A DNA stretch of 64,000 nucleotides from a virus: positions 1 through 64,000 of the IMG/VR virus record IMGVR_UViG_3300005265_000433, one strand, 5' to 3'. Shown piece by piece: positions 46,637-62,799 of the stretch. The notes under the pieces are model-generated. The model was not told where the DNA came from and ran no database searches. It saw only the letters and a list, made by a program, of their open reading frames with translations. A program made the position numbers and the translations under genes. Positions within the stretch are counted from its first letter, which is position 1, and each line of letters begins with the position of its first letter.

Positions 46637-49600
46637 TCAATTATCCATATCAACACCAATAACTTTACAATATTTATGTAATAATTTAACTGATTCAGGT
46701 GCACCAATATCTAAATTATCTTGTGAGATGTCATTAGATTTTAACACTTGCTGAATGTATTTATTTTTTGAGTCAATACTATCAGATTTAACAGTTAAAC
46801 TTTCATATAAAATATTTGGTGCATCGTGGGCTATAAGTGCAGCTTGTTCCATTTCTCCAAGTTTCTGACCACCTTTATTTTTCTTTCCTGATAAGGGTTG
46901 AAGTAATTTTCTGGAATATGGTCCAATTGATCTTGCTGTTAATTTATCTTCTGATATATGAGCCATCTTAAACATGTACATATAACCTACAGCTATTTCT
47001 TTATTAATATATATTTTAGAATAGGGCTCAAATATTCGACTAACATCAGAAACTCCTGTATATCTTTTTATCTCAAAAGCATCATCAATTGAAATTGATT
47101 CAAACGGAGGTTGAATTAATGTGAGATTGTTAATAAATTCTTTTGTAATAATATCTGGCATTTGTTCTTCAAATTTAGTGAAATACCAATTATTTTTAGT
47201 TTTATCCACCAATCTAATAAAATGAAGAATATTATTTTTTATTATTTTATTATCAACACCTGAATCAAAATCTTCTATTAATTTCTCTTTAAACTGATGT
47301 AGAGCCTTTGTTAAATAAATTTCATACAGCTGACCAATATTCATTCTTGAAGGAACACCAAGTGGACCTAAACATACATCCATATGACGTCCATCTTCCA
47401 ATTGAGGCATTTCTTTTTCTGGTAATATAGCAGTAATTACACCTTTATTACCATGTCTATTCCCAATCTTATCTCCAACTTTTATTGTCTTTTCAAAAGT
47501 ACCTTCCATTTTAACTATTATTCCATCAAATAAATCAGTTTTCATTTTAAAGCTGCCATGATTAGCATCAAATACATCAAGATTATTATTTTTAATATAT
47601 TCTTTTGCTTCTCTGATTCCAAAAATATTTTCTAATGTAGATTTTAAAATATTTGCTTTTCTTTTCTGTTTTATTTCTTTTCTAGTTATCCAATCTACAA
47701 ACTCTGGAATAGATTCATTAATATCATTGACATAGATATTAATTTTAGTAATAGTTAAATCTTTTGGGTATGTTAAAACTTTAGTATCCTCGAAAATCGA
47801 ATATTTATCAGTTTGAGATATTGATAATTCCTTCAATTTTGCATATGGTGTACCAGCTGGAACTACGTCACCTATATTAGGAAGGGGTTTATATTTTCCC
47901 TGCTCTAATGTAAGTAAAATTTTATCAATTGGTATAGTAAAAGTCAAATCAGCAATATGTTTAGATGTAAATATTTCATCTTTAACAAGTCTATCAGATA
48001 TAACAATACCATCCTCATAATTTAATCCATAATAACTCATAAAGCCAACTAATAAATTATTACCAATTTGGATACTGCCATCTTCCATAAACTTACTTTC
48101 AAATAAAATATCATCTTTCTTAAATTTGTCATTTTGTTTAAAATAAACTTTATATTCATCCAAATTATCAACATATATATGCCTTATTCCAATTTCAAAT
48201 ATATCACCTTTATCATTTTCATCATCATATTCAACTATCATATAATTATCATTTAATAATAATACAGTACCATCATGTTTTGCCACTTGACAAAATTGAG
48301 TATATTTACTATACAAATACTCACAACCAGATTGAATCATAGGTTTTTGAAAGTTTTTTAGCATGATAGCTTGTCTCATTTGAGATGATGCCATTTGTAA
48401 TCTAGTTTGATCATCATGTTCTAAAAATGGAACCATAGAAACAGGAATTGAATTAATATATTTATCTTCATAATCTTTATTAAATTTAAATCTAGAATCT
48501 AATCTTGATTTGGGTAATAAATTTTGAAGAACTCCACAATTTTCTCTATCTGGAGTATCAACCGGGCATAATCGTCCAAACATACTATCCCTAATATCTC
48601 TCAAATGTTTAGGCACTTCTTTCTTTTTAAAACCATCAGGGCCAATCAAACTTGTTCTAGAAATTTTAGTTAATTCTTCAATTGGATTAATAGAAAAATC
48701 AAATTGAACAATATCAGATTCATTTACTTCAGACATTATGGCACTAGAATTAGTACTATATTTTTTCTTTTTGTAATATTTACTTAAAACACATAGAGAA
48801 TATATATCTTTTATGATTTTACCAAATAGAATATATTCCCAACACCTTATCCTTTTATTCTCAAAATTTTCATCATCATAACCAGGACTTCTTAGTGCTT
48901 TTACTATTTCTAATATCATACAATTAGTTTCAAAAAATTGTGCGCTTAGAACATCAACTTTTAACATAATATCTAAAGCATATAAAACTTCTTTTACTCT
49001 CTTAGTTGGATCATATTTTGAATATGAATCACCTAAAATAGCTAATATATCTTCACGGGTTGCTTCTTTATCTTCTAAAATTATATTTATATCATCCACT
49101 AAAGGTTCAAACCAATCTTTTGAAAATGGTGTTTCTTCATATTCCTCATTAATTATTTTTTTTGTTTCTTCAAAACCAAAATAACCTAAAACTACGTAAG
49201 AAAACGGAACGCTTCTAGCTTGAAAATTCATTATAATGCTTGGCGTACTTTGTGGTTTTCTTATGATAGATAATGATGAAGTATTGGTAAAAAACTTTAT
49301 TAAATTCTTCCTATTAACAATTGGAATATCAAATAATTGATATAAGGGTATTTTTTGTTTTCCATTGATCATTAAATACTGATTTTTAATAAGTTTTGGA
49401 ATCTTATAAATCAAATCAATATTATAACCATCTTTTTCAAATTTAATGGCCAATCTTTCATAGATACTTCTATCAATATTTCCCTTATTTGACATTGATG
49501 GTTTTTTCTCAAAACATGTTAGAACAAATCCATCATCCAATGCAGGTTGGATGATTTCAGAGATTATTTCCATCATATTATCATATTCATATTGTCTAAT

Positions 49601-49654
49601 AGAAAAAAGATTTATGGGTTCAAGTTTAGCTAATTCTGGATTAATTATTTTCAT
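46637..49654 (-). CDS. rpoB: RNA polymerase beta subunit, unsplit
   Basis: A 1005-residue single-chain beta subunit, shorter than bacterial beta (about 1342). The rifampicin-pocket region is clear: SRTSLIGPDGF near 333, and RDSMFGRLCPVDTPDRENCG at 355-374. The catalytic half has GDKIGNRHGNKGVI near 725, LGPLGVPSRMNIGQLYE near 762, and GGQKLGEMEQAAL near 930, with YMFKMAHISEDKLTARS before it. It overlaps the beta' gene by one base (TAATG), so both are made together. Phages of the phiKZ group have beta split into pieces; here it is whole. Confidence 0.95.
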   Translation of the reverse strand: MKIINPELAKLEPINLFSIRQYEYDNMMEIISEIIQPALDDGFVLTCFEKKPSMSNKGNIDRSIYERLAIKFEKDGYNIDLIYKIPKLIKNQYLMINGKQKIPLYQLFDIPIVNRKNLIKFFTNTSSLSIIRKPQSTPSIIMNFQARSVPFSYVVLGYFGFEETKKIINEEYEETPFSKDWFEPLVDDINIILEDKEATREDILAILGDSYSKYDPTKRVKEVLYALDIMLKVDVLSAQFFETNCMILEIVKALRSPGYDDENFENKRIRCWEYILFGKIIKDIYSLCVLSKYYKKKKYSTNSSAIMSEVNESDIVQFDFSINPIEELTKISRTSLIGPDGFKKKEVPKHLRDIRDSMFGRLCPVDTPDRENCGVLQNLLPKSRLDSRFKFNKDYEDKYINSIPVSMVPFLEHDDQTRLQMASSQMRQAIMLKNFQKPMIQSGCEYLYSKYTQFCQVAKHDGTVLLLNDNYMIVEYDDENDKGDIFEIGIRHIYVDNLDEYKVYFKQNDKFKKDDILFESKFMEDGSIQIGNNLLVGFMSYYGLNYEDGIVISDRLVKDEIFTSKHIADLTFTIPIDKILLTLEQGKYKPLPNIGDVVPAGTPYAKLKELSISQTDKYSIFEDTKVLTYPKDLTITKINIYVNDINESIPEFVDWITRKEIKQKRKANILKSTLENIFGIREAKEYIKNNNLDVFDANHGSFKMKTDLFDGIIVKMEGTFEKTIKVGDKIGNRHGNKGVITAILPEKEMPQLEDGRHMDVCLGPLGVPSRMNIGQLYEIYLTKALHQFKEKLIEDFDSGVDNKIIKNNILHFIRLVDKTKNNWYFTKFEEQMPDIITKEFINNLTLIQPPFESISIDDAFEIKRYTGVSDVSRIFEPYSKIYINKEIAVGYMYMFKMAHISEDKLTARSIGPYSRKLLQPLSGKKNKGGQKLGEMEQAALIAHDAPNILYESLTVKSDSIDSKNKYIQQVLKSNDISQDNLDIGAPESVKLLHKYCKVIGVDMDN

Positions 49655-52422
49655 TATTCCCCCTGTTTTAAATTAATATTGAACTTTTCACCCATCATAA
49701 CCCTATTCATAATTCCACTATATGAACTATTAGTATTAATAATTCCATCTAGTAAATGTTTTTTTGGATTACTAAAAGCAAATCCTAAAAGCCAACTTTC
49801 TAATGACGGAACTTTCTGTACTGAATAAAATTCTGGGGTTACCATTTCCCTATCTTTTATTAATCTCCATTTATTATTTTTATACCACATTAATTGGGAA
49901 ACAACACACTCGAAATGAACATGATTTATTTTTTTACTCGAATTATAAATTTCAAATAAATCATCAACTAAAACTTCAGCTGTTGTATTTCTTGGAAATT
50001 TATGTAACTTATTTGAAGCGGATGTTAAATCTGCAACAATATCTTGCTGAATAAAATCATTATTTTCAGTTTCATTATCTTCAGATTTTTTAATTTGGGC
50101 TACCCCTGATGTATGAAAAGTTCTTAAAACCAATTGAGTGTTTGCTTCCCCCAAACTTTGTGCGGCAATTACACCTATATACTCAGAATTTAAATTTTTG
50201 TAAAAATCTCCATAACATTTTTTACAAATTGTTGGATTTTTACAATATATTGGGCTTCTAACATATATGGTTTTATCTAAGTATTTTTCGATACTTTTAT
50301 GTGAAAACTTTTTTAATCTTTTATCTTCCAGGTTTTCTTTAAAGTATTTTCCAATTAACATTTCAGCTTTTTTAATACTTGTTACTTCAACTCTTAATAA
50401 ATCTGTTGTACCACAATCATCTTGAGTTCCCAACGTTAAATTAACACAACAATAAATAAGTTTTCGTGATAAATATCCAGATACACCAGCATGGAGTGCA
50501 ATATCTAATAAACCTTTTCGGCATCCATATGTCGAATTAAAAAATTCTTTAGGTGTCAAACCATGAATTAAACTATTTTTTATTGGGTTTGATAAAATTT
50601 GGCCATCAAAATTTGAAATGAAACCCCTTGAGAAAACCATTTGTCTAACTTGGTCCCAACTTCCACGGGCACCGGAATCAATAATACCAGCATATTTAAA
50701 ATTTTCTCTTAAATATTCTTTTATTTCATCACTATTAATTTTAACTAGTTGATTATGAATATTTTCATCTTTATAGATTTCATCTTTTATTTTTTCAACA
50801 TTTGGAATAGCACAATTAAATAAAGACATTGTTACACCATATAATGTTGAATATTTAAAACCAACAAATTTAACTTTATTAAAAACTTCAGCCACAATTT
50901 CTTCTGGATATTTTTTTCTAATATCAGTTAAAATATCAACTAATACTTTTTTTGTGATAACCTTATTAATAAAAGGATAATCATCAGGAAAACAATAATT
51001 AACAACTATTCTTCCTTTAATTATTTCTTTTCCTTCCCATTCCATAGTATTATTTAAATCATCAGCTTCAACCAATCCCTTTGATAAAAGATAAATTCCA
51101 TAAACAATATCCTGAGAAGGTATTGTTGATAGAGAACCATTACTTGGATTTACTAAATTTTTAGTTGATAACAACTTATCTTTTATTTCTTGTTTTGCTT
51201 CTTTAGAAATTGGTATGTAAATTGCCATTGCATCACCATCAAAATCAGCATTAAAACCTTCACATACTAAAGGATGAATTTGAATTACATCTTCCATTGA
51301 AACTAAAATTTGAAATCCAATCATTCCTAATCTATGTAGTGTTGGTTGTCTGTTTAGGATACAATATTCATCTTTGGTTAATTTACAACATAATTTAAAT
51401 AAGGCGGGATCTCTTGTTTCTATACAATATTCAACTTGCTTGATAGCTTTAGGAAAAAGTTTAAACGTTCCCAATTCAATTAGTCTTTTAGCTATTTGAA
51501 TTTTAAACAATTCTAAAACCATCTTATAAGGTAATACACACTGATGAAGTTTAATTCTAATATTTGGTGTGATCACACATCTTCCAGAGAAATCAATTCT
51601 TTTTGCTAAAATATGACCTCTTATCAAACCCTCTTTTTTCTTTAATTTCTTTAAAATGTAATCATAAAGTTCATTTACATCTTTCTGAGTTTGAGAAAAA
51701 TAATCATAAAAAATTACTTTATTTTGGATTAATTCAAATTTTGTTCCAGATAAACTGAGATTTCTATTTATCAAAGTAAGATAATATTTATTTATTTCAT
51801 CTGCTACTCTATTATCTTTATTTATTCCTCTCGATGCTGGTCTCAATTCTGGTGGCAAAACAATTATATTTTGAATAAAAATTTTATCCAAATTATCATA
51901 AACAATTTTCCATGATTCGGGGTCGTCTTCCATTGATTGTTTTGTATATGTCTCAAATAAAAACTGCATTGCATTTAATGCTTCATAATATTCCACATCT
52001 GGAGGCATATCGCATTTATTAACAACAACAAATTCATCAGTATTAGAATCAACATATAATACTGATTGGTTATTCGTTGTTAATTCATCAATCATATTTT
52101 TAATTTTAGTTTTATTTTTACTTATTCTAATAAATAAATCATAAAATATTGGATTTATTACAGGAACAGGTAAAACTATTTTAGCAAATCTTTTTCTTCT
52201 TTCATCACTATTAGTAATCTTCATTCCGCATTTATCACATTCTCCACCATCTCGTGAAACACCGTGATAAATTCCGCAATCACATGTATAATTTTTTATA
52301 GGTCCAAAAATAAATTCAGAAAATAAACCATTTTCTCTGAATTTTCTTTTTCTCATTAGTTTTTGGGTTGTTATTTCTGGTAGGTCTTTACAAAATTCAT
52401 CAATATCAATCAGTTTTGGCAT
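49654..52422 (-). CDS. rpoC: RNA polymerase beta' subunit, unsplit
   Basis: About 922 residues from ATG 52422 (10 bases after GAGGAG; earlier ATGs at 52431 and 52440 are possible). N-terminal zinc ribbon C47, C49, C62, C65. The catalytic Mg-binding NADFDGD is at 391-397, with LNRQPTLHRLGM just before. The bridge helix/trigger loop is at about 625-660 (RKGLLDIALHAGVSGYLSRK), a second zinc site uses C670, C727, C733, C736, and the F-bridge end reads VIAAQSLGEANTQLVLRTFH. All residues needed for polymerisation are present. No alpha, omega or sigma gene is in the window. Confidence 0.95.
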   Translation of the reverse strand: MPKLIDIDEFCKDLPEITTQKLMRKRKFRENGLFSEFIFGPIKNYTCDCGIYHGVSRDGGECDKCGMKITNSDERRKRFAKIVLPVPVINPIFYDLFIRISKNKTKIKNMIDELTTNNQSVLYVDSNTDEFVVVNKCDMPPDVEYYEALNAMQFLFETYTKQSMEDDPESWKIVYDNLDKIFIQNIIVLPPELRPASRGINKDNRVADEINKYYLTLINRNLSLSGTKFELIQNKVIFYDYFSQTQKDVNELYDYILKKLKKKEGLIRGHILAKRIDFSGRCVITPNIRIKLHQCVLPYKMVLELFKIQIAKRLIELGTFKLFPKAIKQVEYCIETRDPALFKLCCKLTKDEYCILNRQPTLHRLGMIGFQILVSMEDVIQIHPLVCEGFNADFDGDAMAIYIPISKEAKQEIKDKLLSTKNLVNPSNGSLSTIPSQDIVYGIYLLSKGLVEADDLNNTMEWEGKEIIKGRIVVNYCFPDDYPFINKVITKKVLVDILTDIRKKYPEEIVAEVFNKVKFVGFKYSTLYGVTMSLFNCAIPNVEKIKDEIYKDENIHNQLVKINSDEIKEYLRENFKYAGIIDSGARGSWDQVRQMVFSRGFISNFDGQILSNPIKNSLIHGLTPKEFFNSTYGCRKGLLDIALHAGVSGYLSRKLIYCCVNLTLGTQDDCGTTDLLRVEVTSIKKAEMLIGKYFKENLEDKRLKKFSHKSIEKYLDKTIYVRSPIYCKNPTICKKCYGDFYKNLNSEYIGVIAAQSLGEANTQLVLRTFHTSGVAQIKKSEDNETENNDFIQQDIVADLTSASNKLHKFPRNTTAEVLVDDLFEIYNSSKKINHVHFECVVSQLMWYKNNKWRLIKDREMVTPEFYSVQKVPSLESWLLGFAFSNPKKHLLDGIINTNSSYSGIMNRVMMGEKFNINLKQGE

Positions 52423-52654
52423 TCTTGTCATTCTCCTCATTTTCTTCCAGGTAAGCAGAAATTGAATTTAAATGCTGTTGTATTACATAAGCTATTTTTT
52501 TTTCTATAATTTCATCATATACCTCCATAATTTTTTTAATTTGATTTCTAGATAACTCTTCAAATTTTTCCTCAAATATTTTTTCTATTGATATACTAAT
52601 TCTTTTATCAATAAAATCAAATATATTTGTTTTAAACTTTTCTATTTCAGACAT
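52406..52654 (-). CDS. Small helical protein upstream of beta'
   Basis: An 82-residue protein, start at ATG 52654 nine bases after GGAG (an in-frame ATG at 52669 contains the site). It is a Glu/Lys/Ile-rich helix pair, probably coiled coil, ending in an acidic tail. It overlaps the beta' start by 17 bases. A polymerase accessory factor is conceivable from position but nothing in the sequence shows it. Confidence 0.65.
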   Translation of the reverse strand: MSEIEKFKTNIFDFIDKRISISIEKIFEEKFEELSRNQIKKIMEVYDEIIEKKIAYVIQQHLNSISAYLEENEENDKNAKTD

Positions 52655-52703: not shown

Positions 52704-53348
52704 TTAATAGTGTAATACTTCATTAAATGATTGATTGCGTGATTCTAATACATTTTTAATCCATGCCAATCTTTGATCCCTATATAATTTTCCATTTAAA
52801 TATTTTGATGTTCTTATTTTTTTGATGTTTCCTTTTTCTAAATCATATTGTCTATCAATATGGTTCCATGATTTCAATCTATAAAACAAACCTATGAATA
52901 TATCCATATAATATTTTTCTATAAAGGGTTGATTTACAAAATCACCTATACATAATTCATGTGGATTATTCATGTGTCCTAATTGTAATATAGATAATGG
53001 AGCACCTTTGATTGATTTAGAATTTAAGTGGATACAATCAACATAAAAACCTAAAATTTTATTGGTTTCACTATCAATAAGAATATCACATTCGGATGGG
53101 ATTAGATTCGGCGTGGCTAATAAAATTGTATACATATCATCATGTTTATGAACACTATGATAGATATAAGGAAAAACCGATGTCTTTATTCTTACAATTA
53201 TTTTTCCTGATAATATATTCAGTTTTGATTGATAAGGAATATTAAAATTATCCAGAAAATCAATTTTTATGTCTTTCCTATATGGATCTATCACTGCTTT
53301 AACATAGTTAAACGTATAAATCAAGTTTTTTTTCATACATTTTATCAT
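52704..53348 (-). CDS. Putative E2-like protein (small)
   Basis: A 214-residue protein. From residue about 45 to 140 it has alternating strands and then APLSILQLGHMNNPHELCIG, with C133 followed by Ile-Gly. This 'P-x-x-x-x-x...H/N...x-C-x-G' ending resembles the motif of PRTRC protein B-type E2-like domains and is shared in outline with the two large proteins of the locus. After it comes a helix with YYMDIFIGLFYRLKSW. The start follows the stop of the E1-like gene by eight bases. The E2-like reading rests on a short motif and context and needs a profile search. Confidence 0.5.
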   Translation of the reverse strand: MIKCMKKNLIYTFNYVKAVIDPYRKDIKIDFLDNFNIPYQSKLNILSGKIIVRIKTSVFPYIYHSVHKHDDMYTILLATPNLIPSECDILIDSETNKILGFYVDCIHLNSKSIKGAPLSILQLGHMNNPHELCIGDFVNQPFIEKYYMDIFIGLFYRLKSWNHIDRQYDLEKGNIKKIRTSKYLNGKLYRDQRLAWIKNVLESRNQSFNEVLHY

Positions 53349-53356
53349 AACATTAC

Positions 53357-54220
53357 TTACGCCCCTCCTATAGCTGGAATTAAAATATAAACACCATCTA
53401 TTTTATTTGAAATTATGAATGTATCCCCGCACATTTTTAAATATTTTTTAAAATAAACATCTAACTTACCAGCTACTTGACTGAACTGACGTTGATCTCT
53501 TTCTGAAATTATAACTGATTGGCTTTTAAAACCATTTTCAAAAATAAATTTTTGAGGTAATTTTCTTTTAGAATTTACCATATCTAAAATTACATCTGAT
53601 AAACCATCAACATAATCAAATATTTCATAATAATTATGTATATAATTTTTGGTTATAACTCCAGAAGTAGCTAAATCATATATATCCTCATATTTTACAT
53701 TATCTAAATCATCTAAGCATATTGTTATATAACAATTTTCTGTTATAAATTTATAAATATATTCAGACAATATAAAACCAGATATATATTTACTATATTT
53801 AACAATATCTTCCATTTTAATATTAGATGAATAATATCCAAATTTAAAATTGTTTTTATTTGTTTTCTTTCTTGCATCTAAAATTAAAAATTCTTGTGAA
53901 ATACAACATTTTAAATTAACTAATTCATCATCTACTAATGTTCTATCTGTACAATTTAAAATTAATTTATCTTTTGGTAATAAATTCCTACAACCTTCAA
54001 ATGACGAATCATAACATTCGATATTTGAGTTTTTAAATTTATTTTTGAAGGCTATAATCTTTTTTTGGCCGATATCTTCATAATTAAATAAACTTAATGA
54101 AATATTTTTATCTTCAACTATATCATAATCAACTAATTTTAAACTAATATTTTTTTCACATAGTTCTTTTGCTATAAATCCTCCTAAGCTTCCACAACCT
54201 AATATTGTAACATCATTCAT
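53357..54220 (-). CDS. ThiF/E1-like protein with C-terminal Gly-Gly tail
   Basis: A 287-residue protein from ATG 54220, with GGAG exactly eight bases upstream. The N-terminal Rossmann fold has GCGSLGG at 8-14, LVDYDIVEDKNIS at 29-41, and GQKK at 51-54, as in E1-like adenylating enzymes; the canonical Arg after the Asn is missing. The last about 65 residues (strand, strand, long helix, two strands) end in YILIPAIGGA, like the ending of ThiS/MoaD-type ubiquitin-like proteins plus one extra residue. It may thus be an E1 fused to its own ubiquitin-like domain, with the final Ala removable by the JAB protease. The frame is open upstream into the Gly-Gly protein; see that entry. Confidence 0.7.
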   Translation of the reverse strand: MNDVTILGCGSLGGFIAKELCEKNISLKLVDYDIVEDKNISLSLFNYEDIGQKKIIAFKNKFKNSNIECYDSSFEGCRNLLPKDKLILNCTDRTLVDDELVNLKCCISQEFLILDARKKTNKNNFKFGYYSSNIKMEDIVKYSKYISGFILSEYIYKFITENCYITICLDDLDNVKYEDIYDLATSGVITKNYIHNYYEIFDYVDGLSDVILDMVNSKRKLPQKFIFENGFKSQSVIISERDQRQFSQVAGKLDVYFKKYLKMCGDTFIISNKIDGVYILIPAIGGA

Positions 54221-54251
54221 ATTATATACTCCAATATAAAAAAATAAAAAT

Positions 54252-54283
54252 GGGGGATGTGAAAAATTAATTTCACACCCCCC
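54252..54283 (-). terminator. Strong hairpin plus U-tract between the Gly-Gly protein and the second E1
   Basis: On the minus strand GGGGGGTGTGAAA, a 6-base loop and TTTCACATCCCCC form a 13-bp stem with one G-U pair, followed by ATTTTTATTTTTTT. This is a textbook intrinsic terminator. It starts at the six-G run that encodes Gly-Gly and lies entirely within an uninterrupted reading frame. Confidence 0.8.
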
Positions 54284-54574
54284 AGCAGTAACATTGGCAG
54301 GCATATTAAAAATATCAGGGCCATAAGTTGCAACTACTTCAGCAATTGTCATACCACCAACAGGAAGGGATACCTGTGTGCAACCATACTTAACTAATGC
54401 AAACTGAGCATCAGAAACCTGGTCATTACTGGACTGCTGGTTAACTTGAGTGTCAAGAATAAGTTGAACTAACTGGTCTTTAACAGTTTTAGAAACACCA
54501 GTGATTCCTTTTTCAGCACAAATATCTCTCAGTTCTCGGTTAGTCTTAGCATACAACATTTCACTACTGTACAT
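54273..54574 (-). CDS. Putative ubiquitin-like protein ending in Gly-Gly, with SAP-like N-terminus
   Basis: Start at ATG 54574, five bases after GGAGG. Residues 10-42 resemble a SAP/HeH helix-turn-helix (NRELRDICAEKGITGVSK). Residues 55-97 have a beta-grasp-like order: strand QFALVKYG, strand TQVSLPVGG, helix MTIAEVVATYG, strand ANVTAGG. Gly98-Gly99 falls on a six-G run. In the zero frame there is no stop and translation would run through a terminator hairpin into the next E1 gene; a -1 shift on the G-run gives GTG TGA, ending the protein as ...AGGV (the coordinates given). A lost G in the assembly would have the same effect. The ubiquitin-like reading is from pattern only; the fold would be short. 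Confidence 0.5.
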
Positions 54575-54625
54575 ACTTTCCTCCATTTAATAATTAGAAT
54601 TATTTAAGGTTAAAACTAATCTTAC

Positions 54626-55312
54626 TTATGATGTTGAAACCTTTCTAACAGATGGTGTAACCATCAATTGACTCATATCGAAGTAGATTTCATTTCTATC
54701 TTCTAATTTACCTTCCAGGTAAGCTTCAAAGATCCAACACATAAGTAAAGCAGCTGCCGCATTGACAAAATAAAGTTGAGGTTCTACAGAATGTAGTTCT
54801 TCACAACTCATTTCATCAGGGCTTTTGTCATCTGGGGTCTGAATCTCAGGATGAAAATCTGTTAAACTTGGACTTAATTTTTTTCCTCCTTTCTTAATAA
54901 AAATTTGAGCGTTTCCATCCACATGATCATTACCACCAGAAATCAAAACACAATCATCAACATGTTTTTCAATATAACTAGACACACATTTTCTTGTTTT
55001 ATGATTATCAACCGATAGAAAAACAACTGTATCTTCACCAATTATTTCATGAATATTATTATCAGTTACATAATCAACCACAGACCTATAAAAAATATTT
55101 TGAAATTTGTTCTGTAATTCCTTAGCCTTAACTTCAGCTTTATCTCCTAGATTTTCGAACTCTTGTCTTTCAAAATTCTTTGGCTCATAATGATCTCCAT
55201 CAACCAAAAGAATTTGATAACTTTCTTCATCAGTTTTAAAATTCAAATATCTGGAAATTTTTTCAACCAATATAGTACCAATCCCACCAAGACCAATAAA
55301 AATTAATCTCAT
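54626..55312 (-). CDS. ThiF-family E1-like activating enzyme
   Basis: A 228-residue single-domain E1-like protein. GLGGIG at 7-12 begins the nucleotide-binding fold; VDGDHYEPKNFERQ at 37-50 is the conserved 'D-x-D-x-x-E-x-x-N-x-x-R-Q' that contacts ATP. C170 in MSCEELHSVEPQLYFVN matches the Cys and following 'E-x-Q-x-x-x-x-N' of PRTRC-type ThiF proteins, and is the candidate thioester cysteine. It overlaps the JAB gene by four bases (ATGA), so enzyme and protease are coupled. It would adenylate the C-terminus of a ubiquitin-like partner. Confidence 0.85.
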   Translation of the reverse strand: MRLIFIGLGGIGTILVEKISRYLNFKTDEESYQILLVDGDHYEPKNFERQEFENLGDKAEVKAKELQNKFQNIFYRSVVDYVTDNNIHEIIGEDTVVFLSVDNHKTRKCVSSYIEKHVDDCVLISGGNDHVDGNAQIFIKKGGKKLSPSLTDFHPEIQTPDDKSPDEMSCEELHSVEPQLYFVNAAAALLMCWIFEAYLEGKLEDRNEIYFDMSQLMVTPSVRKVSTS

Positions 55313-56607
55313 GCACGCCTCCCTTTTTTAGTTTTACTTGCTGCTTTTAATATTTCAGGATTATTACCTAATGGATTTTCCTCCCAATCTATATCAGCAG
55401 TAGTTGCATCAAATTCTTTGTCATCACTTTCATAATCAATGTATTCTGTATTTATTTCGTCAACAATACTACGTAGATTTGGATTAGTATTAATATCAAG
55501 ATTTAACAATTCAGAAACAAAATATTCTAATTCATATGCATAAACACAATTTGCACATGGCATAGTTGGATTACCCAATTCACAGATAAGTAATTCCAAC
55601 CAATCTGTGTCATCTTCATGAATTGTTGGATCAGGAAAATAATGATTCTGAAGTTTATTTTCTTTCTTGGATGTTTTATCCTTTTGATCTAATTTAATAT
55701 TATCTTTATTTTTTGTATCAGCTGATCCATACCCAGCATACCAATTATAATAATCATCATTGTAAAAATTGTGGTGTGGAGTATATTTTCTGGCAACCAT
55801 TGCATAAGTTTTCTTAGTTACATTTGAAAGCCATTCTTCGTTTGTCCAACCTTCTTCTAATAGAGGTTTTTCAAATTTCATAAATTTTTCATTTCTAATA
55901 GTTGCATGAAAATTTTGATTTAACTTTTGAAAATGAGATGACCCAAATATTTGGTAGTTATTTAAAGTACAATTATAAGTATTATTAGATTTAATTTTAT
56001 TAACTGGGATATTGATTGGTATTTTTTCAGTTATAGAAATTAAACCTTCAACATAATCTTCAGCAACACTCCTTACACCACCAACAGAATATTCAGCTGA
56101 TAATGAAAAACTATCTGGTCTTGTTACATTACCAACTGTAATATGAAGACCATCAAAGTCATTTTCATCATTAACATCTACTCCAGAATGAAAAGCACTC
56201 ATACTACCATGTGAATGAATTGAACCAACAAGCATAAAATTATCATCAACCACAATTGATTTATAATCAATTGAAGCTCCTGTAACTTCTTGTTTTGGGG
56301 CTTTAAAAGAAATACTATTTGTATCAGTATTCAAATATATTAATACCATTGCTTCTGAAGAATGTTTATTATATGCCTGTCTAAAAAATTCAACAACTTC
56401 TTCAAAATCCCGTTGTTTAATTTTAGGCAAATTCATATCTACATATGGTGTAACATCTTCAAGTACTGAAATTTGAGACACTGGTGTTAAACTATCAACA
56501 ACACCAATTTTCTTTTTGATGAACATTCCATTTTTACCAATAACATATGAAATACCTGGATTATCAGGTATTTCATTTTTTCCATCATTAATCAAAACTT
56601 CAAACAT
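55309..56607 (-). CDS. JAB/JAMM metalloprotease
   Basis: A 432-residue protein. Residues 70-190 are a JAB (MPN+) domain with the complete metal signature H131-x-H133-x7-S141-x2-D144, and a plausible catalytic glutamate at E85. The context HSHGSMSAFHSGVDVNDEND resembles PRTRC protein A. Such enzymes trim ubiquitin-like precursors after Gly-Gly or remove them from targets. The C-terminal 240 residues are a second region of unknown fold with CANC near 350 and a strongly acidic, then basic tail. AAAGGAG precedes the start; overlaps the E1 gene. Confidence 0.88.
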   Translation of the reverse strand: MFEVLINDGKNEIPDNPGISYVIGKNGMFIKKKIGVVDSLTPVSQISVLEDVTPYVDMNLPKIKQRDFEEVVEFFRQAYNKHSSEAMVLIYLNTDTNSISFKAPKQEVTGASIDYKSIVVDDNFMLVGSIHSHGSMSAFHSGVDVNDENDFDGLHITVGNVTRPDSFSLSAEYSVGGVRSVAEDYVEGLISITEKIPINIPVNKIKSNNTYNCTLNNYQIFGSSHFQKLNQNFHATIRNEKFMKFEKPLLEEGWTNEEWLSNVTKKTYAMVARKYTPHHNFYNDDYYNWYAGYGSADTKNKDNIKLDQKDKTSKKENKLQNHYFPDPTIHEDDTDWLELLICELGNPTMPCANCVYAYELEYFVSELLNLDINTNPNLRSIVDEINTEYIDYESDDKEFDATTADIDWEENPLGNNPEILKAASKTKKGRRA

Positions 56608-56617
56608 ATTGTCTCCT

Positions 56618-59005
56618 TTAATTATAAAATTTTATAAAATTTTCTTCTACTGTCTGATTATTAAATATTCTTGGTGATGGTATTCCATATTCATTATTTT
56701 GGAACTTTTTTATTGTTTTAAAAGTTTGGGGACGTCCATCATTAAATGCATCATCTAAACTAGTTTTAATATTACATTCACTTTTAGATGGTTCACTTCC
56801 AACATTTTTAAAATGTTCTTTAACAGTTTTTAACCATAAAGTTTGATTATTTGAGAGAACTATTAATTTATCATCTCTATAACAATCAGTTATTATTCCT
56901 TCTATTTTATAAGATTTACTCATGGTTAAACCAATAAATCTAGTTGATGAGGTCTTTTCTATATAATCCCCAACATTAAAACCGTCACATTCTAAAGTGG
57001 CTGTTCTAATTAAACAACCATTAAATAATTTTTTGGATAAACCTACATCATCTGTAATCGGCAAACTAAATTTAGTTTTATCTTTACATGTTGTAAGAAT
57101 TATTGAAATTTCATTTTCAGATATTTCAAATCCATCAATAACACAGTATAATAAAGATAAGTTATAAAATGATGTCCATTTTGGTACTACAATTAATTCT
57201 CCTTTATTTAATGATCTAAGTTTTGTTTCTCTTGACATATAATAAACTAAATTATCAAGTTTATTAGATACCTCATTAAAATTATCATATGTAATTTGGT
57301 TGTTATCTAAATTGATTATTATAGTTTTTCTTCCAGCTGGAGCTAAAGTAGTAAATTCACCAGCGATAAGAAATGAATCTTGCACTATGAAATTAATATT
57401 AATTTTATGTGACAATGAGACATAATCAACTAGTGCAAAACTATTATCTAAAGATAAAAACATATAATTATTTTCTATCTTATCGAAATTACATATTACT
57501 GAATTATTAATTTGTATACGTCCACGTTCAAAAATTATAGTAGAATCATCCACAACAAATGAATTTCTTTCTTCAAAACACAAATTATTTCTTTTTTCAT
57601 ATATTGTTAATTTTTTATTTTTTCTAAGTGTTATTCCATCAACAACATATCCTTTAATATCTTTTTCAAGATAAAAATCATACATTGAATTAGAATATCT
57701 TTTATCCAACGAAGATTTTAATACATAATTACCAGCTATATTATTGACTTTTTCTTTAAAAGTAAAAAATATAGCATTGTGGTTAAATTTATTTATACCA
57801 ATGAGTTTATCACCTTCAGATATAATTTTATTATTATACTTAAACTTAGTAACTATTAAATTTTTCTCCTTTAATTTATTTGTAATAATATCATCAACCA
57901 TATCCTTATTTATTTTATTTAATTCTATCCTGTAAATAATGCTATGGTTTCCTTTAGGAACTAATTCTAGAATTGATTTTTTATAATTATCACTACCTCC
58001 TCCTATACTTATAATATTTACTAAAATATACCTAATTTTATTCATAACAAATTCATCTTGCAAATTGATGGTAATGTGATCATCATCATTAGAAAATGTT
58101 ATACATTTTTCAATTCCATTATAGGTAACATCATGTTTCCTATTTATTTCTCTGAGTCTATCAATAGAACCAACTGTAGTTTCACCAGTAAAACTATTAA
58201 AAATATTATCTGATAATTTATTTGCGGTAAGATCTATTGATGAGTCTGCATAAAGAAAAGATTTAGTATATTTAAGAAGACTAAACTTTGGAGAAAATTC
58301 ATGGCCTAATACTTTAGCTGGATTATTAATACTTTCATATTCCCAAATATAATAATTTGTATGAATTGAATTAGCTCTTCTTGATCGGTTACTAGTATTT
58401 TCAAGATTATATGTTAAATCATTATTATATACTGATACCCAAAAATTATTAACTAACTTATTACATGCCTCCACTTGATTTTCACAATAATACAGTGAAT
58501 GGTCTTCAGGCATACACACACTTTGATTATTATATATATTTGGAAAAGGCATCAGTTGTATAGGTGATTCAAAAGAACTGATTGGACTATTACTCAAAAA
58601 AACATGTACCAGATTTCTAGAATGAGAAGGCCCAAAAACAATTTGAAAAATCACATATGGGAATAATAACTTAAAACTGTTTTTCCGTTTAGTTTTAACT
58701 TGCGGATAATTGTCTCTAAATTTTTCTAACATTTGATCCCTTATATATGATAATGTAGAATCAAGTGTTATTTTGTGAAATTCTGGTGGGAATTCCATAA
58801 TGTAAATTGTTCGTTCTCTTCCCATAAGAATTCCCTTGCAGTTATTTGGAAGAAAACAACTCATGGTTGGTCTACCGAGCTGATTCATTCCGGCCTGTAT
58901 TATATTAGAAAGAAACAGTTGGGTAGGTATCACTGTTTTTTCATTATAATTATTTCCCTCCATTATAGAGGTAAAATTTTTTTCAACCAATAATTTTGCT
59001 GGCAT
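56618..59005 (-). CDS. Large protein with putative E2-like domain, paralogue A
   Basis: A 795-residue protein. The N-terminal 240 residues hold strands, then PFPNIYNNQSVCMP at 153-166 with C164, and a helix with VNNFWVSVYN, which is the 'P-N-x-Y-x-x-x-x-x-C' outline of E2-like domains in PRTRC protein B. It then has YYIWEYESINNPAKVLGHEF at 218-237. The paralogue at 59124 has matching elements at nearly the same positions. The remaining 550 residues are beta-rich repeats of unknown kind (perhaps SH3- or Hint-like barrels). AAGGAGG precedes the ATG. Confidence 0.6.
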   Translation of the reverse strand: MPAKLLVEKNFTSIMEGNNYNEKTVIPTQLFLSNIIQAGMNQLGRPTMSCFLPNNCKGILMGRERTIYIMEFPPEFHKITLDSTLSYIRDQMLEKFRDNYPQVKTKRKNSFKLLFPYVIFQIVFGPSHSRNLVHVFLSNSPISSFESPIQLMPFPNIYNNQSVCMPEDHSLYYCENQVEACNKLVNNFWVSVYNNDLTYNLENTSNRSRRANSIHTNYYIWEYESINNPAKVLGHEFSPKFSLLKYTKSFLYADSSIDLTANKLSDNIFNSFTGETTVGSIDRLREINRKHDVTYNGIEKCITFSNDDDHITINLQDEFVMNKIRYILVNIISIGGGSDNYKKSILELVPKGNHSIIYRIELNKINKDMVDDIITNKLKEKNLIVTKFKYNNKIISEGDKLIGINKFNHNAIFFTFKEKVNNIAGNYVLKSSLDKRYSNSMYDFYLEKDIKGYVVDGITLRKNKKLTIYEKRNNLCFEERNSFVVDDSTIIFERGRIQINNSVICNFDKIENNYMFLSLDNSFALVDYVSLSHKININFIVQDSFLIAGEFTTLAPAGRKTIIINLDNNQITYDNFNEVSNKLDNLVYYMSRETKLRSLNKGELIVVPKWTSFYNLSLLYCVIDGFEISENEISIILTTCKDKTKFSLPITDDVGLSKKLFNGCLIRTATLECDGFNVGDYIEKTSSTRFIGLTMSKSYKIEGIITDCYRDDKLIVLSNNQTLWLKTVKEHFKNVGSEPSKSECNIKTSLDDAFNDGRPQTFKTIKKFQNNEYGIPSPRIFNNQTVEENFIKFYN

Positions 59006-59034
59006 TAAAACCTCCTTATTTAAATATTTAACTA

Positions 59035-59056
59035 TTCAATTATTTATATATATAGT
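59035..59056 (-). promoter_or_regulatory. CTATATATATAAAT motif, candidate promoter (copy 3)
   Basis: The minus strand reads AACTATATATATAAATAATTG, about 40 bases before the start of the 795-residue protein and just after the terminator of the upstream gene. This placement is the best evidence that the motif is a minus-facing promoter. Confidence 0.5.
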
Positions 59057-59070
59057 TATTATTAAAAATA

Positions 59071-59112
59071 ATGGTTTCCCACATTAAGATAAATCAAAAT
59101 GTGGGAAACCAT
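59071..59112 (-). terminator. Perfect 15-bp hairpin
   Basis: ATGGTTTCCCACATT, 12 bases, AATGTGGGAAACCAT. Lies 12 bases after the stop of the gene at 59124; probably its terminator, with only a weak U-tract. Confidence 0.7.
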
Positions 59113-59123
59113 AAAACACAATA

Positions 59124-61301
59124 CTACAATGAAAAATGTTCTCTAACAAAATCTTCATGCATTCTACATACAACTCCAGTTGGTTTTCTTAAATGAATAA
59201 AAGAACTAATACTGGCATTTCCTTCAAATATCTTTACATTACACGTAGTTGACCTAGCAACAACATCATATTTATCAGTTTTTCTAAATCCATCAATTCT
59301 AGTTGATGTTATTTTTTTGATAGTTGTCCCAAATTTAAATTTTGGATCAGATATAGAAAAATCATCTGATACCCCATATCTTGAACATAATGTTATTGAT
59401 TCTATTTGATTAGACACGCCTCCTAAAAATTTAACACTAGCTCTAATCTCATTTAAATCTTCATCAAAATAAATAGAAGTTATTCTTAAACGGTTAAAAC
59501 AACTATACATACAAATTATATCACCAACTTTATATTTGACTATTCGATTTTTACAAGATATACTTAATACTTTAGTCTTTTTATCATACCAATCATCAAA
59601 AGCATCATTCAATACATCTCGTCTGCTATATGGAGTAATTGTTGTGGATTCTGAAACCCACTTATAACCATTTTCAGTTTGTGATAATAAAAAACTTCCT
59701 ATGAGTATACTTGATAAACCTTGAATAAAATTAGTTTTGATACCTTTAATGAATTTTGGTTTAGTTGTCAATTGATTAAACTGATTTAATGAAATACTTT
59801 TATCTGAATTAACAATTAGATTTATTTTTAATCCATTACTAAATAAAAGACAAAACGACCCATTTGAAATAATAACTTTTTCATAAGATCCAGTTGATTT
59901 TAACAAAATATCATCCTTATCAATATAAAATATAATTTCCTTTCCTTTCTCAAAACCAAAGATATCTTCAATTGATAGTTTTTCAATATTGTTAATATCA
60001 AATGCTAGTTTAAATACACCATTATTTGTAATTAACGTAATATCTCCATTAATATTTTTTAACACCCTTTCTAAAACATAAGTATTATAAAGATTATTAT
60101 TCCAGGTATATATAAAAATATCTCCTTTTTTAAGTTTTGAGCCATCTAAAAGTTCAATCTCAGATAAAATCTCATTTTCTTGTTCAAATTTCTTTTGACA
60201 TATATCTTCATACATACAATATAAATTATTAAAAGAAAAAGAACATTCAGCATCAGTTTTAATATTCCTACATAGTAAAAACTTATCATTTTTATGTCTA
60301 TCAAATATTATATCATCAATAATATAATCAACATCATGAATGGTTATTCTCTCACCACATTCCCAAATATACGTTGTACCATCTTTATCTTGTAGATTAA
60401 AAAATAATTCATTATTCGTTATAAATGTATTATTTAAAATGTTACCATTTTTAGGTAATTCAGAAATGCTACCACTTAACCAATCAATAATATCATAAAA
60501 TACCTCTTTTTTAGATTTGTTAAAATATACTTCATTCGACCGAGTTTTTAATATTATAGCATTAGGTAAATCTATTTTTTTAAACTCTTTTAATATTTTA
60601 GATGGATCTTCTGTGGAAACTTTTTCCCACTCATAATAATTACCAAATAATGAATTACCATAACTGCTAACACATTCAACATAATCATCGTTAAATGCTG
60701 TATTCCATAAGTTATTATTTACAATATTTACAATATTTTTAATATTTTCTTCTCTCTTAATATACTCATAATCATCGCCTGTCAATCCCTGACATAGATA
60801 ATTAGTCATATCATCGTGGATTCTTACGTTAAATAGAGGTGCATGATAAACTCTATCATACACACTTCTAATTGGTTTTGGGTTTATATACAACGATACA
60901 AATATATTTTTATTAAATAAATTTACGTTTGTTTTAATATACATATAAGGCATATATAAATAAAATGAAATATTTCCATTTAAATCAACTTTCTTACATA
61001 CCTCTTTATTTTTAACTTCAAAAACATTTTTCATATTTAATACTGATTCATTAAATGTTACATAAATTTTTCTATATTGTGGTTGAAATTCTTGAATTAT
61101 ATCAACTAAACCGCGTTCAATCGACATATGAATCGAGTTGGACGGTAAATCCATATTTAAATTTAATGAATCAATTGAACATTTTTGTAAAAAATCTATC
61201 AGATGATTTGGATTTTTTTCTATTCCAATCGCGTTTATACCAATATCCGAATCGTAATTTAATGCTTTTATTGTATTACTTTCAATAAAAAAACCATTCA
61301 T
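59124..61301 (-). CDS. Large protein with putative E2-like domain, paralogue B
   Basis: A 725-residue protein, started at ATG 61301, seven bases after AAAGGAG (an in-frame ATG 51 bases upstream has no such site). It is a distant paralogue of the 795-residue protein: APLFNVRIHDDMTNYLCQG with C170, a helix with VNNNLWNTAFND, then NYYEWEKVSTEDPSKILKEF at 221-240. The C-terminal 480 residues are beta-rich with several short barrel-like units. The conserved cysteine with following Gly is the candidate E2 site. It begins the transcript of the ubiquitin-like locus. Confidence 0.6.
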   Translation of the reverse strand: MNGFFIESNTIKALNYDSDIGINAIGIEKNPNHLIDFLQKCSIDSLNLNMDLPSNSIHMSIERGLVDIIQEFQPQYRKIYVTFNESVLNMKNVFEVKNKEVCKKVDLNGNISFYLYMPYMYIKTNVNLFNKNIFVSLYINPKPIRSVYDRVYHAPLFNVRIHDDMTNYLCQGLTGDDYEYIKREENIKNIVNIVNNNLWNTAFNDDYVECVSSYGNSLFGNYYEWEKVSTEDPSKILKEFKKIDLPNAIILKTRSNEVYFNKSKKEVFYDIIDWLSGSISELPKNGNILNNTFITNNELFFNLQDKDGTTYIWECGERITIHDVDYIIDDIIFDRHKNDKFLLCRNIKTDAECSFSFNNLYCMYEDICQKKFEQENEILSEIELLDGSKLKKGDIFIYTWNNNLYNTYVLERVLKNINGDITLITNNGVFKLAFDINNIEKLSIEDIFGFEKGKEIIFYIDKDDILLKSTGSYEKVIISNGSFCLLFSNGLKINLIVNSDKSISLNQFNQLTTKPKFIKGIKTNFIQGLSSILIGSFLLSQTENGYKWVSESTTITPYSRRDVLNDAFDDWYDKKTKVLSISCKNRIVKYKVGDIICMYSCFNRLRITSIYFDEDLNEIRASVKFLGGVSNQIESITLCSRYGVSDDFSISDPKFKFGTTIKKITSTRIDGFRKTDKYDVVARSTTCNVKIFEGNASISSFIHLRKPTGVVCRMHEDFVREHFSL

Positions 61302-61356
61302 ACTATTCTCCTTTTTTATGATTAAAAATTTAAAACGTAAAACATATAACATATTA

Positions 61357-61461: not shown

Positions 61462-61767
61462 CTACTTTTTAATACTAAATTTTATATCCTCTTCATCTTT
61501 AAGCCATTCAACTTTATCAAACTTGACTGCTCTCCAACCCTTTTTTTCTAAATCATACACATGTACTAAATTATTTTTATTAATTTGATTTAAAATTTTA
61601 GGGAGGTTTACTTCTTTTGGCCTATCTGATTTTGGTATTTTATCAAAATTTAAAGTACATAACATAATTCTTTCAGTGCCATCAGCTTTTTTAAATTTAA
61701 TTGTAACTGACTCTTCAGCTTTTATCTTTTCTAAAAATTCAATTGCTGAATCAATTGTGTTTGCCAT
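61462..61767 (-). CDS. WYL_2/DUF2693-like small protein
   Basis: A 101-residue protein. FKKADGTERIMLCTL near residue 25 and VYDLEKKGWRAVKFDKVEWL near 69 match the layout of the DUF2693 family ('F-x-K-x-D-G-T-x-R ... D-x-x-x-x-x-W-R-x-x-x-x-x-x-V'), common in phages of many hosts. These are SH3-like WYL relatives of unknown ligand. GGAGTT precedes the start. It directly follows the radical SAM gene (three bases) and so is cotranscribed with it. Confidence 0.75.
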   Translation of the reverse strand: MANTIDSAIEFLEKIKAEESVTIKFKKADGTERIMLCTLNFDKIPKSDRPKEVNLPKILNQINKNNLVHVYDLEKKGWRAVKFDKVEWLKDEEDIKFSIKK

Positions 61768-61770
61768 GTT

Positions 61771-62799
61771 TTAACTCCTTTTATTTAAATGTAATAATGT
61801 ATCCTTGCTATCAGAATCTAGAATCATTTTTGACATTATTTGACATGTCCAATTGCAACCTTTACACGCAAATATTTTATCAATTCTTAACATATTCTTT
61901 AATTCTTCCCAATTCACTTCACCATTCTTATCAATAAAATTAATGACTTTAGCATTTGGATATATTGATGAATAACCTTTTACTCTTAAACATAATCTAA
62001 TTTTTCCATCAGCATCAATTGTTAGATTATGAAATGAATCCAATAACTTACAATCTAAATTAGAAGGTAAAATATCATAAATATTTTTTAAAAGTTCCTG
62101 TGACATATGAACATCATAATTTTTATCAATTAATGATTTTAAAATATTCCATACTTTATCACTAGGATATACCATCATTTTTTCATTCGTCACATTTGAA
62201 AAATCATAATGATCATTTTTAGAAATATCTACAAACGTAATACTGCTAGTAATACCATTTTCATCCAAAACTTTAACTAACGGTTCAATAGATTCAATAT
62301 TTTTATTATCAATAGTTATTTCAGCAACTAAATCCTTAACTTTATCTTTCAAAGCTATTAATCTATTTAACCCATTTAAACTTTTTTTATACCTATCAGT
62401 TTCCTTTTCACCAGAAAAAATAACTGGATCAACCGATGATGTTAATCCATCAACATATTCAGTTTTTTCAAATAATCTTTCCAAAGCTGGCTGAACTTCA
62501 TCTGAATTATTAGTAATAATTGTATAATATATTTTTTTATCATTACAAAAATTTATAATCTCTGGTAAGTCTTCTCTTAAAAGGGGCTCCCCACCATAAA
62601 AAATATGAAAACAGAATGGATTATGTTTATGAATTCTTTCTAAAATTTCTAAAACATATTTTGTTGACATTTCATTTATTGTATAATAATCCATTGATGG
62701 GTAATTTTTATTATGAGGTTCCCTCACAATTCCACAATAAGAACAAGACAAATTACAACGCCTTGTTAATAACCAGTTTACAATAATTAATTTATCCAT
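61771..62799 (-). CDS. Radical SAM enzyme with extra C-terminal cysteines
   Basis: A 342-residue radical SAM protein. The cluster motif is C15-x3-C19-x2-C22 (RRCNLSCSYCG), then FYGGEPLL near 68, a conserved SAM-binding GGE element. Further cysteines are in SNLDCKL, GKIRLCLRV and ACKGCNWTCQ near the C-terminus; this resembles SPASM/twitch domains that bind auxiliary iron-sulfur clusters. Enzymes of this sort modify peptides, sugars or RNA. It is not the QueE type, whose motif spacing differs (C-x14-C-x2-C). Substrate unknown. Confidence 0.88.
   Translation of the reverse strand: MDKLIIVNWLLTRRCNLSCSYCGIVREPHNKNYPSMDYYTINEMSTKYVLEILERIHKHNPFCFHIFYGGEPLLREDLPEIINFCNDKKIYYTIITNNSDEVQPALERLFEKTEYVDGLTSSVDPVIFSGEKETDRYKKSLNGLNRLIALKDKVKDLVAEITIDNKNIESIEPLVKVLDENGITSSITFVDISKNDHYDFSNVTNEKMMVYPSDKVWNILKSLIDKNYDVHMSQELLKNIYDILPSNLDCKLLDSFHNLTIDADGKIRLCLRVKGYSSIYPNAKVINFIDKNGEVNWEELKNMLRIDKIFACKGCNWTCQIMSKMILDSDSKDTLLHLNKRS

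Follow-up and report, generated by a model that had tools for sequence, protein, structure and literature searches.

A probable phage pathway for ubiquitin-like protein conjugation, related to the Iyer 6d/PRTRC systems and encoded beside RNA polymerase genes

We analyzed a 64,000-nucleotide window of the 67.8-kb IMG/VR virus record IMGVR_UViG_3300005265_000433, which carries contractile-tail genes (sheath, baseplate wedge) and also encodes a multisubunit phage RNA polymerase (RNAP). A minus-strand run at 52704-61301 (61352 when read from an upstream ATG) comprises six open reading frames (ORFs) and leads directly into the RNAP beta' and beta genes. Its products are one JAMM protein, two proteins of ThiF fold and three that each have a conserved cysteine. 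Judged from sequence, this locus probably represents a dedicated phage pathway for conjugation of a ubiquitin-like protein (Ubl) of the Iyer 6d/PRTRC type. The best reading is a phage variant of that system, enlarged by a pseudo-E1 (E1, ubiquitin-activating enzyme), a second ubiquitin-conjugating enzyme (E2) and giant E2s rich in barrels. An initial annotation had proposed a Ubl-conjugation locus directly followed by the phage RNAP genes, and this part held. Its seven consecutive genes reduced to six ORFs, because a single ORF of 409 codons holds both the Ubl-like segment and the second ThiF, and its statements on a small Gly-Gly protein, a second E1 and a duplicated E2 had to be corrected.

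Relatives were found by a scan with an alignment of three sequences of ThiFa, the first ThiF-fold protein, which recovered 70 viral loci; the JAMM protein alone as query recovered none. The pairing of JAB and ThiF genes that the initial annotation suggested looking for exists in these relatives. Fifty-five of the 70 loci carry RNAP (RpoC) and the second ThiF-fold protein, ThiFb, and order and strand are identical in 54 of these 55, which is far beyond chance. The shared order, as far as the contigs extend, is large E2-like protein (E2L), JAB, ThiFa, Ubl, ThiFb, small E2-like protein (E2S), RpoC and RpoB. An extra protein, p153, sits between Ubl and ThiFb in some loci, and SMC/SbcC-type, radical SAM and WYL_2 genes lie upstream in most of the loci with ThiFb and RNAP. 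We did not take four contig matches (three contigs of metagenome-assembled genomes and one partial match) as evidence on the host.

The JAB/JAMM metalloprotease gene (55309..56607, minus strand like all genes of the run; 432 amino acids [aa]) encodes a PRTRC_A-like protein. The complete JAMM motif that had been annotated is indeed present: the window copy reads E85, H131, S132, H133, S141 and D144, and E85, H131, H133, S141 and D144 are invariant in 26 diverse sequences, giving the zinc-site pattern E...HxH...S..D. The protein matched the NCBIfam model PRTRC_A with E=5e-13 (49 bits, below the curated cut-off of 101.8). Its PDB profile matches were the named deubiquitinases RPN11, AMSH and BilC, plus one other, 2kcq, an unannotated JAB-type entry of the Mov34/MPN/PAD-1 family. 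Similarly, ThiFa (54626..55312, 228 aa), a predicted E1-like adenylating enzyme of the active type, matched PRTRC_ThiF with E=6e-10 (38.8 bits, below the curated cut-off of 144.75). Residues G7/G9/G10/G12, D38, R49, Q50, K58 and D102 were present in 34 of 34 sequences, as was C170, and the PDB matches include the E1s UBA5, SAE2, MoeB and BubCD.

Two large E2-like proteins head the run: E2L-1 (59124..61301; 725 aa, or 742 aa from the upstream ATG at 61352) and E2L-2 (56618..59005; 795 aa, C164 invariant). Both carry a Prok-E2_D-like cysteine motif, 'N-x(n)-C-x-G', whose cysteine is present in 51/51 sequences, and the E2L N-domains match Pfam Prok-E2_D in 28 of 42 members (best 1.2e-7), any other family being matched at most once. 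The lack of an E2-like domain, together with a cofactor enzyme without a Ubl partner, had been named at the outset as what would speak against conjugation; these Pfam matches and the Ubl gene of the relatives point the other way. L051 matched TIGR03737 (PRTRC_B) at no better than 0.0033, and the window protein did not match it. The full-length E2L model is of low confidence (pLDDT 66.6). Modest-probability matches to Spt5 KOW and tandem Tudor folds were obtained for its best-modelled C-terminal region (residues ~600-740) and the adjacent barrels, and the C-terminal part models as Tudor/KOW-like SH3 barrels in tandem. Within the group with ThiFb and RNAP, the duplication of E2L is restricted to the window and its nearest relative, L006, so that it is no general part of the system. 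The copies pair as orthologs, E2L-1 with L006:4318-6300 (tree support 99/95) and E2L-2 with L006:6303-8759 (100/98). The distant phages L058, L059, L063 and L070, in which ThiFb was not detected, hold JAB-ThiFa-Ubl together with several smaller E2-like genes; on the 340-kb viral contig L059, three E2-like paralogs stand ahead of JAB-ThiFa-Ubl (L059:4414-8861).

The third conserved-cysteine protein, E2S (52704..53348, 214 aa), belongs to a family with the motif HPN-x(8)-C, in which H and C are found in 47/47 members and P and N each in 45/47; the window copy reads HLN...C133. Its PDB profile matches were three in all, each an E2 enzyme matched at the HPN...C region, and UQ_con was matched in 2/46 members (best 0.006). 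The three E2-like proteins had been annotated as sharing a similar motif; a conserved cysteine is common to them, whereas the motif is Prok-E2_D-like in two and HPN...C in one. E2L, E2S and Ubl could not be usefully named from PHROGs and NCBIfam.

ThiFb (53357..54220; 287 aa from its own ATG, which is preceded by a GGAG site; ending IPAIGGA) has, by its model, an E1 fold. Indeed, the AlphaFold model reached a pLDDT of 88.6 and a pTM of 0.87, and its best Foldseek matches were Cap2, UBA5 and MccB. Among 48 sequences, the Arg-Gln pair of NxxRQ is replaced, mostly by Asn-Ser: position N+3 is Asn in 35/48, with Arg absent among the listed residues, and N+4 is Ser, Thr, Gly or Ala, with no Gln. Of the two E1-like proteins initially annotated, both thus have the ThiF fold, but the second lacks the canonical Arg-Gln and is, from these residues, probably a non-adenylating partner. 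The C terminus is GAA or GGA in 40/48 sequences, a Gly-(Ala/Gly)-Ala tail. Its final ~65 residues are modelled with the element order beta-beta-alpha-beta-beta, which is that of the ubiquitin-like fold. Since hhalign gave only a weak match between this domain and the Ubl family (E=0.05), we do not claim homology but only the shared order of elements; a PDB profile search with the domain returned nothing relevant.

In the relatives, Ubl is a gene of its own. The L006 protein has 124 aa and ends VEFIKPAGTKG-stop, followed by a strong hairpin with a T-run and then by ThiFb. Family members match Rho_N (30/38), TGS (25/38) and ThiS (19/38) domains. The tail is KG in 42 of 62 relatives and KG with a short extension in 19 of 62, and one protein (L043) has a longer extension; the residues past KG would therefore leave a precursor-trimming job for the JAMM protein in some phages. 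The L043 protein (10649-11278), with ~70 extra residues behind its GDKG tail, would be an obvious candidate for cleavage by the JAMM protein. The Ubl gene has a higher G+C content at third codon positions than its neighbors in 55 of 56 loci (p about 1e-10); that of RpoC is not raised. We take this as a sign of strong expression, and the codon bias suggests the abundance expected of a consumable tag. A strict hairpin-plus-T scan was positive behind Ubl in 21/62 loci, and we rejected a universal terminator at this place on that count.

The window differs from this arrangement. Its Ubl (54277..54586) consists of the Rho_N/SAP-like N-domain and the first half of the beta-grasp domain, and lacks ~27 C-terminal residues and the stop codon. 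The frame continues without a stop into ThiFb, giving a fused Ubl-ThiFb ORF (53357-54586, minus strand, 409 codons) in which the Rho_N/SAP-type domain and the half Ubl domain are followed by a strong terminator-like hairpin (GGGGGGTGTGAAA/TTTCACATCCCCC) with a T-tract (54237..54283) and then by ThiFb. The small protein ending in Gly-Gly is no gene: the 'TAGG' in question lies inside this ORF and aligns mid-domain in the Ubl of relatives (L006 'ILASG|KKVSG...VEFIKPAGTKG'), which end in KG. Real biology, be it a Ubl-E1 fusion that occurs naturally or a system in decay, would fit a frame open over 409 codons and a 67.8-kb record with no second Ubl copy. However, the fusion occurs in 0/55 relatives, the frame crosses a strong terminator hairpin and passes the good ribosome-binding site and ATG of ThiFb, and the lost piece is exactly the essential Ubl tail. 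We therefore regard a genuine fusion, as opposed to an assembly deletion, as a serious but somewhat doubtful option. A search for a second contig holding the Ubl-ThiFb junction found none.

The type 6d operon of Iyer et al. 2006 comprises a JAB, an E1, an E2 of family D, a small Ubl and an alpha-helical protein (PMC1779556). In the relatives, neighboring JAB, E1-like, E2-like and small Ubl genes with a C-terminal Gly are all found; in the window, Ubl is truncated and fused. As in PRTRC/6d systems, the four core activities are separate genes and Ubl has a conserved C-terminal Gly, while the JAMM protein resembles PRTRC_A, ThiFa resembles PRTRC_ThiF and the E2L N-domain resembles Prok-E2_D/PRTRC_B. 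This is in good agreement with the PRTRC relationship initially noticed. For the fifth, alpha-helical protein, the p153 of some loci is at most a candidate. Unlike PRTRC/6d, the phage locus adjoins RNAP genes and includes the pseudo-E1 ThiFb, a small E2 of the HPN type and a Rho_N/SAP domain on Ubl, and its E2L is enlarged to 660-1230 aa with barrel repeats. No match to ParB, the PRTRC ParB-like part, was seen among ten proteins around the locus. Because the NCBIfam cut-offs were missed and a ParB part was not found, we did not file the locus as a PRTRC system.

The antiviral Bil and Bub systems of bacteria (BilABCD, BubABCD) likewise hold complete Ubl/E1/E2/JAMM sets, and the PDB profile matches include BubCD for ThiFa and BilC for the JAMM protein; the present locus differs in being phage-encoded and in its Ubl tail, E2 family and gene set. 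Of Bil and CBASS parts, PADLOC yielded matches for ThiF-fold proteins only (ThiFb to E1-E2 down to 9e-11, and a marginal BilD match at 0.0035) and no whole Bil or CBASS system, the scanned Ubl, E2 and JAB proteins being without matches. The E1 domain of CBASS Cap2 is the closest solved fold to ThiFb, and a JAB partner (Cap3) exists there as well. However, E1 and E2 are fused in Cap2, which acts on a CD-NTase, whereas the phage has them as separate proteins together with a Ubl gene, and no CD-NTase was seen there. Two eukaryotic comparisons apply as analogies. UBE2O also combines an E2 domain with SH3/Tudor-type barrels, a likeness of design only (Foldseek gave it E=0.097 and prob 0.04, a negligible match), and SAE1/SAE2 and APPBP1/UBA3 each join one active and one inactive adenylation-fold protein, a pairing that is predicted for the phage.

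Compact versions are present in cultured phages. In Salmonella phage Arash, Vibrio phages D69, D148 and D181, and Bacillus phage vB_BauM_KLEB27-3, the E2-like, JAMM and ThiF genes are ordered as in the phage family described here. Unlike in that family, the E2 is small (230-270 aa), no ThiFb or E2S was seen, and the Arash cassette does not adjoin the RNAP genes. The Arash order is a 66-aa Ubl ending GTKG, gp250c, gp248c (judged E2-like by its PFPN...MCVG motif and position), the JAMM protein gp247c (PRTRC_A, E=1.8e-21, 76.6 bits) and the ThiF protein gp246c. The Arash Ubl lies at L079:107-307 (OQ632216.1 180513-180713) and ends RRTGTKG; the record annotates another frame there (gp251c). In D69, a three-unit Ubl protein annotated as hypothetical (VPHD69_0307, L080:1379-2170), whose units each end NKTGTKG or ARTGTKG, is followed by E2-like, JAMM and ThiF genes, and D148 and D181 match D69 in Ubl and JAMM. 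No Ubl was noticed near the three genes of vB_BauM_KLEB27-3. In line with the initial view that such a phage operon had not been described, a literature search that left out preprints and subscription papers found no paper on such a locus in phages.

From these parts we infer catalysis, partner pairing and targets as follows. Ubl would be produced in excess from a cassette beside the phage RNAP genes. The JAMM protein would trim Ubl precursors past the C-terminal Lys-Gly and strip Ubl from targets. ThiFa would adenylate the Ubl glycine and may hold Ubl on the invariant C170, with ThiFb as its non-adenylating partner, the two together resembling a split eukaryotic E1. Ubl would then be handed to the cysteine of the small HPN-type E2, of the large E2, or of both, and the large E2 might pick substrates through its tandem Tudor/KOW-like barrels, an E2/E3-hybrid plan like that of UBE2O. 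Several observations weigh against this reading. The Ubl of this genome is truncated, and for this reason the copy may be non-functional or mis-assembled. The Ubl tail is KG and not the classical GG. Single-sequence E2L homology is weak (E=0.04 for the full-length window protein, 0.005 for its N-domain), the N-domain profile had no direct PDB matches, and in Foldseek the full model drew mainly matches to its barrels and did not recover a UBC fold, so that the assignment of E2L as an E2 rests on the Pfam homology. The assignment of E2S comes from its motif and weak profile matches. Finally, ThiFb retains K54 (48/48), mostly D92 (42/48) and a Lys or Arg at N+2 (31/48), and its inactivity is for this reason not certain.

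The chemistry itself could be a different one. If ThiFa made a Ubl thiocarboxylate, Ubl would be a sulfur donor like ThiS, MoaD or Urm1, serving for instance DNA or tRNA modification with the radical SAM neighbor. The ThiS/TGS matches of Ubl, the conservation of that neighbor and a FolE2/QueF-like ORF located downstream of RNAP in L003 (family judged by eye) are in line with this idea. Nevertheless, we consider it improbable: the cassette has no rhodanese (none among the scanned proteins) or sulfurtransferase, it contains a JAMM protein and E2-type families with an invariant cysteine, and Ubl ends in KG or KGC instead of the GG of ThiS/MoaD. The remaining alternatives concern what a conjugation pathway would act on; action on the virion, counter-defence and control of transcription are each possible. 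In the first case, Ubl together with the JAMM, E1 and E2 proteins could mature or decorate virion parts, or ride in the capsid and act on the host at once. Arash gp248c and gp246c are labelled structural proteins in the record, a label that the Arash paper gives to proteins detected in purified particles with two or more unique peptides; RNAP beta/beta' are among the most abundant proteins there (PMC10585845). As 116 proteins were detected in these particles, they could plausibly include abundant proteins carried over from the infected cells, and for such enzymes the authors themselves mention both packaging and simple carry-over (PMC10585845). The gene numbers in its table map poorly to the GenBank labels, and we therefore treat the particle data as a lead. 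Moreover, the RNAP-linked family has its cassette in the RNAP operon and not in the tail operon, and a role in virion building seems unlikely to us.

A role in counter-defence or host takeover, which is compatible with conjugation chemistry and competes only over the target, we rate as possible but rather doubtful. Ubl would be attached to host proteins (defence proteins, RNA polymerase) and inactivate them, or the JAMM protein would remove host-attached Ubl of the Bil/CBASS type. Bacterial defences do use related E1/E2/JAB parts (Cap2: PMC10097602). ThiFb has the PADLOC E1-E2 matches given above, and the cassette is near-universal in the lineage and adjoins transcription genes. Anti-defence genes, however, usually come and go, whereas this cassette is conserved as strongly as a core function, and no target is known, phage or host. 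It is a more speculative thought, and an unlikely one as a whole, that a split, eukaryote-like E1 of active ThiFa and inactive ThiFb, the latter with a ubiquitin-fold-like domain at its C terminus, feeds two E2 classes, that the E2/E3 hybrid docks on the transcription machinery with its KOW/Tudor-like barrels, and that Ubl tagging controls phage or host RNAP during infection. If true, a virus of bacteria would possess a ubiquitin-like regulatory pathway of its own.

Most discussion of complete Ubl pathways in bacteria treats them as antiviral defence; here, such a set belongs to the core equipment of a phage lineage and is near-universal in it. Because a conserved kit of a tag, two activating-type proteins, two kinds of conjugating-type protein and a protease stands beside the RNAP genes, a protein-tagging pathway of eukaryote-like design seems to belong to the routine equipment of this little-known family of large contractile-tailed phages. 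Its parts recall eukaryotic solutions: an active plus an inactive E1, an HPN-type E2, and a giant E2 with reader-like barrels. As cultured phages of Salmonella and Vibrio carry compact versions, what phages tag, and why, becomes directly testable.

The conserved neighbors in the window are likewise on the minus strand: downstream, RNAP beta' (49654-52440) and beta (46637-49654), together spanning 46637..52440; upstream, a WYL_2 (Sm/SH3-like barrel) protein (61462..61767) and the radical SAM protein (61771..62799). The latter matches many radical SAM families, prokaryotic viperin models among them (PADLOC pVip 8e-15; NCBIfam viperin 48 bits, cut-off 180). The L003 ORF mentioned above (L003:19227-20114) resembles, by eye, a GTP cyclohydrolase of the FolE2/QueF type, a hint of deazaguanine metabolism. 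Farther away in the window, the protein at 19320-21065, right behind the tail sheath gene, has a PHROGs match to HNH/homing endonucleases (5e-94).

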